Positions 51,057 through 55,459 of a stretch of 64,000 nucleotides of DNA are shown here, one piece after another. The notes below the pieces were generated by a model. The model was given only the letters and a program-made list of their open reading frames with translations. It made no database searches and had not been told where the DNA came from. The position numbers were made by a program, and so were the translations under genes. The stretch lies in assembly GCF_001681715.1 (NCBI RefSeq), contig NZ_LNWY01000014.1, positions 248,001 through 312,000 on the forward strand, written 5' to 3'. The DNA is from Tritonibacter mobilis. GTDB taxonomy: Bacteria > Pseudomonadota > Alphaproteobacteria > Rhodobacterales > Rhodobacteraceae. Positions within the stretch are counted from its first letter, which is position 1. Each line of letters begins with the position of its first letter.

Positions 51057-51863
51057 TTATTTCCCGCCCAGCACTTGGTTCATGCTGACCGAGGGCTGAT
51101 CACAACCTGCCTCGCCCACAATCTTCGCGGGCACCCCGGCCACGGTCTTGCAAGGTGGCACCTCCTGCAGCACCACAGACCCCGCCGCGATCCGGGAGCA
51201 ATGACCGATGCGGATATTGCCCAGAACCTTGGCCCCGGCGCCGATCAGCACGCCGTCCTCGATCTTGGGGTGGCGGTCCTCTTCTTCCTTGCCGGTGCCG
51301 CCCAGCGTGACGGAATGCAGCATGGAGACATTGTCGCCCACCACCGCTGTCTCGCCGATCACGATGGAATGGGCGTGGTCGATCATGATGCCCTTGCCAA
51401 TCTTTGCCGCCGGGTGAATGTCGACGCCAAAGATCTCGGAAATCCGCATCTGGAAGAAATAGGCCAGATCCCAGTCGCCCTGCTGCCAGAGCCAATGGCC
51501 GACACGGTAGGCCTGCACCGCCTGATAGCCTTTGAAATAGAGGATCGGTTGCAGCAGCCGGTGGCAGGCCGGGTCGCGCTCATAAACCGCCATCAGGTCC
51601 GCACGCGCTGCCTCAACCAAGGCTGGTTCCGCCTCATAGGCACCATCGACGATCTCGCGCAGGATCACCATCGACATCTCATTGGAACAGAGCTTGGCCG
51701 CAATCCGATAGCTCAACGCCTTATCAAGCGCTTTGTGGTGCAAAATACAGGCGTGAATCAGCCCCCCCATCAGGGGTTGTTCGGCGACTGCGGTCTCGGC
51801 TTCCTCGGTAATCCGGCCCCACACGGGGTCGATCTGCCTGACGGCCTTATGCGTGTCCAACAT
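51057..51863 (-). CDS. cysE: Serine O-acetyltransferase
   Basis: CysE acetylates serine with acetyl-CoA, the first step to cysteine. The 268-residue protein has an N-terminal helical part and C-terminal left-handed beta-helix hexapeptide repeats (about 145-245), with the catalytic His in GIMIDHAHSIVIGETAVVGD and MLHSVTLGGTGKE. The tail ends with SMNQVLGGK; a C-terminal tail is used for cysteine feedback and binding to CysK in the family. ATG 51863 has AAGGA eight bases upstream. It is convergent with the pdh operon. Confidence 0.95.
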   Translation of the reverse strand: MLDTHKAVRQIDPVWGRITEEAETAVAEQPLMGGLIHACILHHKALDKALSYRIAAKLCSNEMSMVILREIVDGAYEAEPALVEAARADLMAVYERDPACHRLLQPILYFKGYQAVQAYRVGHWLWQQGDWDLAYFFQMRISEIFGVDIHPAAKIGKGIMIDHAHSIVIGETAVVGDNVSMLHSVTLGGTGKEEEDRHPKIEDGVLIGAGAKVLGNIRIGHCSRIAAGSVVLQEVPPCKTVAGVPAKIVGEAGCDQPSVSMNQVLGGK

Positions 51864-52222: not shown

Positions 52223-52429
52223 ATGGCTAATGGCACCGTGAAGTGGTTCAACTCCACCAAAGGTTACGGCTTCATCGCGGTTGAAGGCCGCTCCAACGAC
52301 GTGTTCGTGCACATCTCCGCAGTGGAACGCTCCGGTCTGACCGGTCTGGCCGATGGCCAGGCGGTGACCTTCGAAATCCAGTCCGGTCGTGACGGTCGCG
52401 AATCCGCATCCGATCTGCAACTGGCCTAA
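52223..52429 (+). CDS. Cold-shock protein, CspA family
   Basis: The 68-residue protein is a single cold-shock domain (MANGTVKWFNSTKGYGFIAV, then SNDVFVHISAVERSGLTGLA), with both RNA-binding motifs KGYGFI and VFVHIS. It melts RNA structure during cold or growth transitions. ATG 52223 follows AAGGA at nine bases. A long leader and a strong terminator surround it. It lies next to the GTA remnant but is an ordinary chromosomal gene. Several csp paralogues per genome are usual, so I give no letter. Confidence 0.95.
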   Translation: MANGTVKWFNSTKGYGFIAVEGRSNDVFVHISAVERSGLTGLADGQAVTFEIQSGRDGRESASDLQLA

Positions 52430-52470: not shown

Positions 52471-52809
52471 TCAATACGATGAACACCCCGGTTGCTGCTC
52501 GCGCCGGGGTGTTTTTTTATGCCCACCTGCCACGGCCGCAAGCACCATCTGCAGACAGCGCGCATAGTCGGGATCGCCGGGAAATGGTTCTGCCGCCAAA
52601 GGAAAACAGCGCGCCGCCCGGTCCAGTGATCCATCGCCCCAGCGCGGATGACAGCGCCCGGTGGCCTCTGTCTGGTGGCGCGCCCGGCTGGCACCCTGCA
52701 GGATCACCCGGCACAGGGCCGCCCGTCGCGAGGCGGGATGGGCCAATAAAGCACGGGCAAGGCTGCGGATATCCTCCCACAGGATGGGCCGTAATGTGAC
52801 GGGCCTCAC
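52471..52809 (-). CDS. Small protein coupled to GTA g15
   Basis: The 112-residue protein begins MRPVTLRPILWEDIRSLARA and contains TGRCHPRWGDGSLDRAARCF and EPFPGDPDYARCLQMVLAAV. I know this type only as a small conserved protein found at the end of GTA clusters in roseobacters. The start GTG 52809 overlaps the g15 stop by four bases (GTGA), so it was translationally coupled to g15. With g15 lacking a start, its expression is now doubtful. The last codons run through the convergent cold-shock terminator, so the original C-terminus may have been different. Function unknown. Confidence 0.6.
   Translation of the reverse strand: MRPVTLRPILWEDIRSLARALLAHPASRRAALCRVILQGASRARHQTEATGRCHPRWGDGSLDRAARCFPLAAEPFPGDPDYARCLQMVLAAVAGGHKKTPRREQQPGCSSY
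52482..52518 (+). terminator. Cold-shock gene terminator
   Basis: AACACCCCGG (52482-52491) pairs with CCGGGGTGTT (52504-52513), followed by seven further T. It overlaps the last codons of the convergent GTA-linked ORF. Confidence 0.9.
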
Positions 52810-53275
52810 GCCAGCACCCACTCGGCCACCGGACCGGCCCCGTAGCGCTCCGAGACCTGCGCCACCTGCACCACATCGCCCGCGCTTGCGCCATCGCTGG
52901 CCTGATCTGCCGCGCTATAGGTCCAGTGGGGCGTGGTGACGCGCAGATCACGCAGCACCGTGCTGCCCGCGCGCACCTGCACGCGGTAGACCTCAACCTC
53001 TTCGCCCAGCGGCACCTCCTCCAGATCCCAGCTGTCGCCCTCGATACGGGTGCGCCTGATCCAGTGAAACGCCATATCCGCGCCCAACGCCTGCGAGGTG
53101 CGCAGATGCACCGGCGCATAGGGGCGCAAACCATTTCCGTCAAAGGCCGCCGAGAGCGCCACATAGGACGGATCATCATAGGCGCGCCGCGCCGGGCCAA
53201 AGCGGTAGTCACGCGACATCCGCCGATCCGACAGCGCCAGATCCAGCTGCTCGACCGCGCCGTCCATCGGGGTCA
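52806..53275 (-). pseudogene. GTA g15 (baseplate/host-specificity), C-terminal remnant
   Basis: About 155 C-terminal residues remain of a protein normally near 1300 residues. The remnant reads MDGAVEQLDLALSDRRMSRD, then GLRPYAPVHLR, FHWIRRTRIEGDSWDLEEVP and the end QVSERYGAGPVAEW. I recognise it as the end of the large RcGTA tail-tip protein. It has no start of its own: upstream the frame runs into g2 sequence in another phase. The stop TGA (52806-52808) overlaps the next GTG. The remnant looks free of internal stops, suggesting the deletion is fairly recent. Confidence 0.82.
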
Positions 53276-53661
53276 GAGGCGGAGAACGCCTGCGCGGTGG
53301 CTCCATTAGGCCAGACCAGCCTGCGTTCGCCCGCGCGCCACTCCGGGCGGCGGTCCGGCGGCGAGCAGGCAAGGATGCCGCTGTCGCCATGGATCATCAC
53401 ATCGCGCACCTGATCGTAGGTCTCGCCCACCAGTGCCATGCGACGGGCGCGACCGATGCCAAAAGGCTCTGCCCCCTCGACCTCAGACCGCACCCATTCC
53501 GCACCGGCACGGGTCTTGCCCGCCCCGCGTCCACCCAGGATCACCCAAGCGCGCCAATCGCCCGCAGGCGCGCATTGATGCGGCAACGCCCAGAGGTCGA
53601 ACACATAGGGCATCGCTGCCAGGGTGTGGTCATCCATCTCATCCAACCAGATCTGCGTCAT
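53262..53661 (-). pseudogene. GTA g2 (large terminase), N-terminal remnant
   Basis: About 133 residues remain of a protein normally near 450. From ATG 53661 the protein has WVILGGRGAGKTRAGAEWVR (Walker A at about 43-50), MALVGETYDQVRDVMIHGDS, GILACSPPDRRPEWRAGERR and LVWPNGATAQAFSASDPDG. After SDPDG the expected LRGPQ is replaced by out-of-frame g15 sequence that stops at 53209. The ATPase core beyond Walker A and the nuclease are lost, so it cannot package DNA. ATG lies inside the end of g1 (23-base overlap), as usual. Confidence 0.85.
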
Positions 53662-53983
53662 GAAGCGCAGCACAGAGGCCAGCCAAGCGGCGCTCGATCT
53701 CATCGCGGGCGGCACAGAGGTCGAAAGCCACCATGCGGGCGGCACCAGGGGCGTCTTTGCGGTCGACAAGGGTTTTCTCCACTTTCTGGATGTCACGGAT
53801 CAGGCCATCGAGCTTGGCAATCTGGGGCTTTAACTGCGCGGTGTCGGGGTTGATGTCCTGTTCTGCCTCGAACTGGGCGAGGTAATCCTCGCTGATCCGG
53901 CGCGCACGCCGCAGGCTGTCGTGCAAAGAGCGCAAGAGATCAGAACTGATCTCAATCAGCTCTTCCGGGGTCTGTGCTGTCAT
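53639..53983 (-). CDS. GTA g1, small-terminase-like protein
   Basis: The 114-residue protein begins MTAQTPEELIEISSDLLRSL and is helical and charged, with RRARRISEDYLAQFEAEQDI, KLDGLIRDIQKVEKTLVDRK and ARMVAFDLCAARDEIERRLA. I recognise it as the first gene of RcGTA-like clusters, reported as the small terminase subunit. It appears intact. Start ATG 53983 is chosen because it gives the known N-terminus. Being separated from a working g2, it has no packaging partner here unless another GTA locus exists elsewhere. Confidence 0.8.
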   Translation of the reverse strand: MTAQTPEELIEISSDLLRSLHDSLRRARRISEDYLAQFEAEQDINPDTAQLKPQIAKLDGLIRDIQKVEKTLVDRKDAPGAARMVAFDLCAARDEIERRLAGLCAALHDADLVG

Positions 53984-54304
53984 GGGGGTACGGCCTCGTC
54001 TCATAACGATCCGACGGGAGAAACGGGAGGCCAGGATCATTGACCCGTCCAGGTCCTTCGATCCTTGCCCCCACGTTTTCCAGCTGCCGAGAATGGTTTT
54101 ACAAGACGTAAATGAACATCACCTCAAACCACCGTCCGCTGCCGGAGCAACGGCTGATGCGAGGCTCTGCCTCGCGCTCCGGGATACTTGAGAGTTAGAA
54201 GAGGTTGAATGTCGCGCGCCCCAACTTCTTCTAACAAGAAATATCCCAGGGGGTGAGGGCTTTGCCCTGCAAAGCACGAGGGGGGCAGTGCCCCCCTCAT
54301 GTCG
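53984..54304. other. Upstream of GTA g1; repeat-bearing gap
   Basis: From 53984 to about 54158 I see no gene; the GTA promoter and any regulator site would lie here. From 54159 to 54298 lie two head-to-head copies of the dispersed repeat. mltG ends at 54305. Confidence 0.5.
54159..54298. repeat. Dispersed CCCGGGATATTT repeat, copies 3 and 4, head to head
   Basis: Forward copy: hairpin GCGAGGC-TCT-GCCTCGC (54159-54175), then CTCCGGGATACTTGAGAG and TTAGAAGA (54177-54202). Reverse copy: TCTTCTAAC (54227-54235), AAATATCCCAGG (54239-54250) and the hairpin GAGGGGGGC-AGT-GCCCCCCTC (54278-54298). The two copies face each other over about 25 bases and lie between the GTA remnant and mltG. Confidence 0.72.
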
Positions 54305-55459
54305 TTAGTTGTTGTTGCGCTGCGCTTCGATTTCGCGCCACTTGGCCACGTTGCGATTATGCTCTTCGAGCGTTTCAGCAAACGCATGCCCGCCGGTGCC
54401 ATCAGCCACAAAGAACACATAATCGGTCTGATCCGGGTTCACCGCCGCCACCAGGCTCTCAAGGCCCGGGTTGGCGATTGGTGTCGGCGGCAGACCTTCG
54501 ATCACATAGGTATTCCAGGGCGTGACGCCGCGCAGCTCGCTTTGGCGCAGACCACGGCCCAGCACACCTTCGCCCTTGGTGACCCCATAGATCACCGTGG
54601 GGTCAGTTTGCAGGCGCATGCCGCGCTTCAGGCGGTTGGTGAAGACCGAGGCCACCACGCCGCGTTCCGCAGCTACGCCGGTTTCTTTCTCGATGATCGA
54701 GGCGAGGATCAGCATCTCTTCGGGGGTTTCGACGGCCGCATCCGGGCTGCGCGCCTCCCATGCGTCTTTGATACGTTTGTCCTGACGCGCTTTCATTTCC
54801 GCAAGAATCGACTCGCGCGAGGTGCCGGGGCGTATCTCGTAGCTATCCGGCGCGAGGCTGCCTTCGGCGGGGCGACTGCCGGGCTCCCCTTCGAGGATGT
54901 CCATGGCTTTCAGAGATTCGATAACCTGCCAGCTGGTCACACCTTCGGCGAGTGCGATGCGATAGCGCGTGTCGGCCTCGGATTTTTTCTCCGTATAGAC
55001 CGCAGGGGTTTCATCCACGCCGGGCACAAATTCCGCGCGTTCCACAAAGGCGTTGGTTGCGGGGTCCAGCTCGCGCACCTCAGCCAACACGCGGGTCACG
55101 CCGACGCGGTAGACGATCTCCGTGCCGCAGGTCGAGGCACCGCCACGGGTGATCTGATCGACGATGCCTTTCATCGAGGCACCGGGCTCAACCAGATAGC
55201 TGCCCGCTTTGAGATGCTGCGCTTTTTCCGAGTATTTCACCCCGATGCGAAAGATGGTGCCGCTGGAGACAACGCCATCATCCTCAAGCCGGCGCGAGAC
55301 CCGCGCCATATTGGTGCCACCGGGAACCTGAAAGCAGATTGCCTCCGTCAGGGGACCCTCAGAGGTATACTCGTTCTTGCCCCACAGGATCACACCCGCG
55401 AAGAGGAACAGGCCGACGATCAGGATCGTCAGCATGTTCGAGGCCAGACTGCGCCACAT
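54305..55459 (-). CDS. mltG: Endolytic murein transglycosylase MltG
   Basis: MltG cuts nascent glycan strands and so limits their length. The 384-residue protein has one N-terminal membrane helix (about 7-26) and the periplasmic YceG domain with GTSRESILAEMKARQDKRIK, the catalytic Glu in ILASIIEKETGVAAERGVVA, and the closing TPIANPGLESLVAAVNPDQT followed by YVFFVADGTGGHAFAETLEE. Its start is one base after the fabF stop region, so it is translated with fabF; the fabF-mltG pair is a common order in Rhodobacterales. Both repeat copies lie behind it. Confidence 0.95.
   Translation of the reverse strand: MWRSLASNMLTILIVGLFLFAGVILWGKNEYTSEGPLTEAICFQVPGGTNMARVSRRLEDDGVVSSGTIFRIGVKYSEKAQHLKAGSYLVEPGASMKGIVDQITRGGASTCGTEIVYRVGVTRVLAEVRELDPATNAFVERAEFVPGVDETPAVYTEKKSEADTRYRIALAEGVTSWQVIESLKAMDILEGEPGSRPAEGSLAPDSYEIRPGTSRESILAEMKARQDKRIKDAWEARSPDAAVETPEEMLILASIIEKETGVAAERGVVASVFTNRLKRGMRLQTDPTVIYGVTKGEGVLGRGLRQSELRGVTPWNTYVIEGLPPTPIANPGLESLVAAVNPDQTDYVFFVADGTGGHAFAETLEEHNRNVAKWREIEAQRNNN

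Follow-up and report, generated by a model that had tools for sequence, protein, structure and literature searches.

The window, a stretch of 64,000 nucleotides of the Tritonibacter mobilis genome, holds at positions 52471-53983, on the minus strand, the two ends of a head-tail gene cluster resembling that of the gene transfer agent of Rhodobacter capsulatus (RcGTA), a virus-like particle of the type by which related bacteria transfer DNA from cell to cell. The features are collected in Table 1, and the congener closest at the locus, hereafter G005, which has an intact cluster between the same flanking genes, served as the reference for the joint.

Table 1. Features of the GTA remnant and its flanks (window positions). 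The g numbers follow the RcGTA scheme by our own assignment, and the names of the flanking genes are presumed.
Feature	Position	Strand	Remarks
mltG/yceG-like gene, upstream flank	54305..55459	-	same position in G005 (L059:200-1354)
g1	53639..53983	-	complete, 114 aa; 97% amino acid identity to G005 g1
g2 (large terminase), 5' part	53267..53661	-	131 native codons; Walker A motif GGRGAGKT present
Deletion joint	53266..53267	.	12,989 bp of G005 (L059:2327-15315) missing; 2-bp GA common
g15 (baseplate megatron), 3' end	52806..53267	-	last 153 codons and stop; in-frame ATG at joint
DUF7742 ORF	52471..52809	-	after g15; DUF7742 match 1.5e-26
Cold-shock gene, downstream flank	52223..52429	+	same position in G005; strand opposite to cluster
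cysE (serine acetyltransferase), downstream flank	51057..51863	-	same position in G005 (L059:16791-17624)

Remnant genes and deletion joint

The ORF that we take to be g1 of the RcGTA scheme gave no match in protein-family model searches, and its label is based on position and on comparison with congeners. A small terminase of a gene transfer agent (GTA) has been described (PMC6854486). In the RcGTA scheme g1 is its gene. The g2 part matched Pfam Terminase_6N (5.3e-11); its truncated frame adds 19 out-of-frame residues to the native codons and stops at 53209, giving 150 aa in total. The g15 part matched the NCBIfam model GTA_megatron (1.6e-48, model positions 1125-1298 of 1299) and the RcGTA chain 6tba_8A (9.1e-38), its score being under the whole-protein cut-off of the model, as is expected of a fragment. 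The DUF7742 ORF starts with a GTG at 52809 that overlaps the g15 stop as GTGA. Apart from the joint, no internal stop or frameshift was found in the remnant genes. The original prediction had described an intact g1, a g2 remnant with Walker A, a C-terminal remnant of g15, a small ORF coupled by GTGA and remnants free of internal stops, and all of this was found as described except for the codon counts, given there as 133 for g2 and 155 for g15. An Rfam search of the window between 49 and 58 kb returned nothing at gathering scores. Just upstream of g1, at window positions 54156-54205, there is a dispersed repeat with approximately 20 or more matching sites elsewhere in the genome.

In the alignment to G005, the window tracks g2 up to ...GACCCCGA and g15 from GATGGA, so that the overlap is GA; in the other congeners shown (G007, G009, G011, and G016) it is 0-1 bp. 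Relative to G005, g2 has lost about 70% of its length and g15 its first 88%, and g3-g14 are missing altogether. Since the joint is out of frame, no g2-g15 fusion protein results; g2 and g15 had been placed in contact at about 53260-53280, which agrees with the joint in position, but the frames do not match across it. The heptamer CCGATGG, previously proposed to be common to both breakpoints, was rejected as a deletion substrate, as it is the sequence of the joint itself. Thus, the idea of one short-homology deletion stands with regard to the single clean junction, known from one draft assembly of 59 contigs, and fails with regard to the homology, which is of 2 bp at most. For this reason, the event resembles illegitimate recombination or end joining more than a deletion between repeats. 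The exact 31-base joint pattern was not found in IMG/VR, from which records very near this genome may be absent; such a result is expected for a chromosomal scar. Comparison with the intact congener cluster shows that the locus is unable to encode portal, capsid, tail or most of the baseplate.

Intact clusters in congeners and search for the missing stretch

When 61 genomes (60 relatives and the strain's own) were searched with the locus, 38 matched. Both query ends were matched as separate pieces in 16 of the 17 same-genus genomes, those of G005 being C22:272041-272825 (query 1-784) and C22:285813-286635 (query 783-1569), and in G004 only the g15 end was matched. In none of the 17 congeners did a match run through the joint without a break. 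A single contig carries the cluster in 14 of them, with g2-g7 and g9-g15 found in each; g8 was left out of the gene count because its reference was faulty (internal stop), and 7 of the 14 contiguous loci had no g8 match. The other three clusters are cut by contig ends (two contigs each in G010 and G015, and G004), and a g6 match in the short G010 piece was taken as spurious. The proposed alignment to an intact cluster found one at the same site in congeners. In G005 the flanking gene order is also the same: the mltG-like gene borders the cluster at one end, and the cold-shock gene and cysE follow at the opposite end. The capsid of this G005 cluster matched RcGTA Rcc01687 at 1.4e-176.

In G004, the first 1146 bases of the reverse complement of L065 (C198:24000-30631) carry a transposase ORF that looks IS3-like by eye and immediately precedes a full-length g15. 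The contig breaks off at that transposase, and g1-g2 were not found in the G004 genome (94% complete, 260 contigs). The genus may thus contain another GTA disruption of independent origin, unless this is an assembly gap.

A query of 12,988 bases of G005 (L059:2327-15314) against the own 59-contig assembly returned one 44-bp match only, within a capsid gene whose product has 29% identity to the capsid of the GTA. This capsid gene adjoins terminase, portal and protease genes of its own and therefore belongs to another prophage; the search for g3-g14 thus found nothing else of the missing stretch. The separate prophage (L085, C45:205000-222000 of the own genome) comprises terminase, portal, protease and HK97-type capsid genes. 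With the GTA capsid protein as query, only the same 29%-identical prophage capsid was found in the genome, and with the megatron model only the g15 stub. As the G005 capsid is close to that of RcGTA, these queries were the right ones. The functional RcGTA gene set, with terminase, portal, protease, HK97 capsid, tail and baseplate in one cluster, is absent; with respect to descent, the remnants are closest to RcGTA-like genes and are sited where relatives have intact clusters.

The gafA lesion and other genes of the GTA system

GafA has been reported as a direct activator of RcGTA that is essential for its production; its gene usually lies between lipA and guaA, and the protein is active in Ruegeria mobilis (PMC6363796). 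The presence of gafA has been reported in 196 of 208 GTA-bearing genomes (PMC9765227). The search for GafA suggested along with the original prediction revealed a second lesion: only the last 30 codons of gafA are left in the own genome, at the start of the same contig (draft assembly) and approximately 300 kb from the cluster scar, a distance given by the position of the window on this contig, C6, at 248001-312000. The DUF6456 model, which describes the end domain of GafA, matched the own genome only at model positions 115-135 of 136 (C6 bases 19-81). In all six congeners searched, DUF6456 was matched over almost its whole length, and the open frames concerned are 351-400 aa long. In G011 there was a second, weak DUF6456 match.

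The gafA region of G005, used as a DNA query, recovered the upstream side in the own genome (contig C4, base 115 onwards) but not gafA itself. C6 starts with 20 bases ending in CGCAACAGAGCC, followed by ARSGKIVLRIALEQLHQHYESCPPQNQMIG and a stop, which correspond to the last 30 residues of G005 GafA. The first 120 bases of C4 are 90% identical over 100 bases to an element annotated as ISPko1 (IS5-like), and they end in the inverse of GGCTCTATTGCGTAAA; ISPko1 itself has GGCTCTGTTGCACAAA at one end and the inverse at the other. In view of these termini, both contig edges resemble ends of IS5-type elements, in C6 on the basis of 20 bases only. A stretch of about 1.08 kb at the gafA locus of G005 (L093:4474-5556) has no counterpart in the own genome, and no target duplication is seen, as the bases adjoining the two IS-like ends differ. 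These data would fit an IS-linked deletion, or two insertions together with a lost small contig. We infer that one IS between C4 and C6 caused the loss of gafA; C4 and C6 are not joined, and the assembly might have left out a small contig on which gafA is flanked by two copies of an IS.

The gafA stop and lipA are separated by a second transposase, which has a DDE domain and is 87% identical to ISPso2-type elements over 64% of the query. The neighbour of gafA on the upstream side is intact, encodes DUF6477 and was taken by position as the counterpart of rcc01866. With gene names assigned by eye, the locus resembles that reported for gafA (rcc01865) in PMC6363796, having lipA on one side, guaA further on the other and the DUF6456 end, and it differs from R. 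capsulatus rcc01865 in the 30 codons that are left.

As regards other genes of the system, DUF2793, which we assume to be linked to GhsA (head spike genes ghsA/ghsB), was found in four of six genomes. It was rejected as a head spike marker, as it is absent not only from the own genome but also from G009, which has an intact cluster; moreover, its neighbours appeared polysaccharide-like by eye. A tailspike-gene candidate without stops, an ORF of 761 aa, lies two genes from lysS. It gave pectate-lyase-like and beta-helix matches under the curated cut-offs and one weak match in PDB (3.5e-4, a polygalacturonosidase); tspA has been reported next to lysS (PMC13420450). Between lysS and this candidate there is an HTH regulator (L084:9316-10128, on contig C23 of the own genome), which might be a GTA regulator of the rogA type, reported beside lysS in Caulobacterales (PMC13420450).

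The megatron and the GafA domain were surveyed in 395 genomes of the family with a completeness of at least 90%. The megatron model matched 361 of them (330 over the cut-off) and not the remaining 34, and DUF6456 matched 369 and not the remaining 26. Both were present in 358 genomes, DUF6456 only in 11, neither in 23, and the megatron only in 3 (G181, G183, and G301, drafts of 130-460 contigs); the own genome is counted as having both although each is a stub. The Fisher p for co-absence, 6e-26, overstates the case because the genomes share ancestry and include fragmented drafts; the distribution suggests that activator and cluster tend to go missing together. Megatron matches weaker than 1e-130, from rows read by eye, were seen in 14 genomes including the own. 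The other 13 have a strong DUF6456 match (4e-33 or better) and may carry scars or divergent copies; if they are scars, this would argue against the cluster and gafA being routinely lost together. Five genomes, G107, G153, G251, G337, and G377, combine a very weak megatron match with a strong GafA-domain match and are candidates for collapsed clusters.

Age and meaning of the loss

The silent divergence between the own genome and G005 was 0.13 in g1, 0.21 in the g2 part and 0.18 in the g15 part, against 0.60 in the mltG-like gene, 0.61 in cysE and 0.86 in DUF7742, in a comparison that leaves out cspA and fabF, the latter represented by one 65-codon piece in G005 only. In steps of 200 bases, identity to G005 was 0.925-0.985 between about 54020 and 52820. 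Outside this tract it was lower for the most part, except in conserved genes, among them the cold-shock gene and cysE. The low divergence of the GTA tract means that it has a younger common ancestor with the G005 copy than the flanks have, which suggests homologous recombination of the tract 52820-54020 across the GTA locus between species. As G005 is intact, the deletion is younger than that ancestor; the predicted recent loss thus holds in this relative sense only.

The dN/dS ratio with respect to G005 was 0.116 for g1 and 0.016 for the g2 part. Amino acid changes polarized with G007 as outgroup were distributed between own-only and G005-only as 1:0 in g1, 1:0 in the g2 part and 5:1 in the g15 part, and silent codon changes as 4:1, 12:6, and 7:6, respectively. 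With G009 as outgroup, the respective ratios were 2:1, 1:0, and 5:2 for amino acid changes and 4:2, 9:6, and 4:6 for silent codon changes. Relaxed selection on the remnants was considered, and the changes are too few to claim it.

The prediction that the strain is GTA-negative at this locus was supported, given that the missing stretch, a GTA capsid and a megatron beyond the stub were not found and that gafA is also a stub. We are highly confident that a single deletion of about 13 kb reduced an RcGTA-like cluster to the scar seen here, with gafA lost too, in a GTA-minus strain. The best reading is that GTA production was lost fairly recently and by at least two lesions. In this mechanism, a single illegitimate deletion with a homology of 2 bp at most would have removed portal, protease, capsid, tail and most of the baseplate, while without gafA the remaining GTA genes would stay off. 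From the cluster deletion and the loss of gafA it follows that the strain should not express or build GTA particles, and it is very probably a non-producer. The order of the lesions may have been either of two: the loss of gafA would silence the cluster, leaving it free to be deleted, or, if the cluster went first, lysis driven by GafA would bring nothing but cost. The survival of a stop-free g1, the gafA-neighbour gene and the tailspike candidate would fit a loss too recent for all parts to have gone. It is conceivable, if rather doubtful, that the strain is a natural non-producer and a recent "cheater" among GTA-carrying congeners. Selection against production and lysis would then have acted at two distant loci, on the structural cluster through a deletion and on the activator through an IS-linked one, and the recipient side and the tailspike gene would stay.

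Other explanations must be considered. In a draft genome of 59 contigs, the assembler could have skipped a full cluster that in fact exists. We regard such a collapse as very improbable, since the 13 kb are in no other contig and there is no unplaced capsid or megatron of GTA type, the homology at the joint was judged too short for a misjoin, genome completeness is given as 100%, and gafA is separately damaged. That the remnants belong to a degraded ordinary prophage is less credible still: phages do share terminase and tail proteins, and the remnants matched phrog_2 (terminase, 1.6e-4) and phrog_4271 (tail, 3.1e-33), but the GTA megatron model and the RcGTA chain are matched best, the capsid at the same site in the congener is close to that of RcGTA, and the flanks are the same in G005.

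The low dN/dS ratios and the lack of stops would also agree with a shortened locus kept by selection, in which g1 and the truncated terminase ATPase have a new role. Nevertheless, a young deletion should also give low ratios, since most of the differences would then be older than the deletion. In addition, the truncated terminase ends in out-of-frame residues and the short form is found in none of the 17 congeners, so that a functional locus of this kind appears highly unlikely.

The reading as a deleted GTA cluster can be placed beside the known systems. The own locus shares with the RcGTA cluster the same g1, g2 and g15 ends, order and strand, and in the congener the set is complete and includes a capsid of RcGTA type; unlike RcGTA, the own locus lacks 12,989 bp from g2 to g15 and no particle can be encoded. 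Ruegeria, now Tritonibacter, mobilis has been reported as a GTA producer (PMC6363796; PMC13420450). The persistence of costly GTAs is an open question, and a published model indicates that GTA-positive populations cannot resist GTA-negative invaders (PMC6209664). In this regard, the strain offers a natural GTA-minus partner for testing the cheater idea, with structural and regulatory losses of which the structural one is base-resolved. GTA systems have been described as pseudogenised or lost in several alphaproteobacterial lineages, with a cheater interpretation, and pseudogenised clusters have been suggested to mark recent cheaters (PMC10883770, 2024). A non-exhaustive search of the GTA literature, covering parts of the papers, found no earlier report of paired cluster and gafA lesions. 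Since GTA loss has already been published (PMC10883770), ours is a new case of a known phenomenon, which differs from the cases presented in the portions of that paper considered here in having a joint mapped at single-base resolution and an activator gene that has also been lost.
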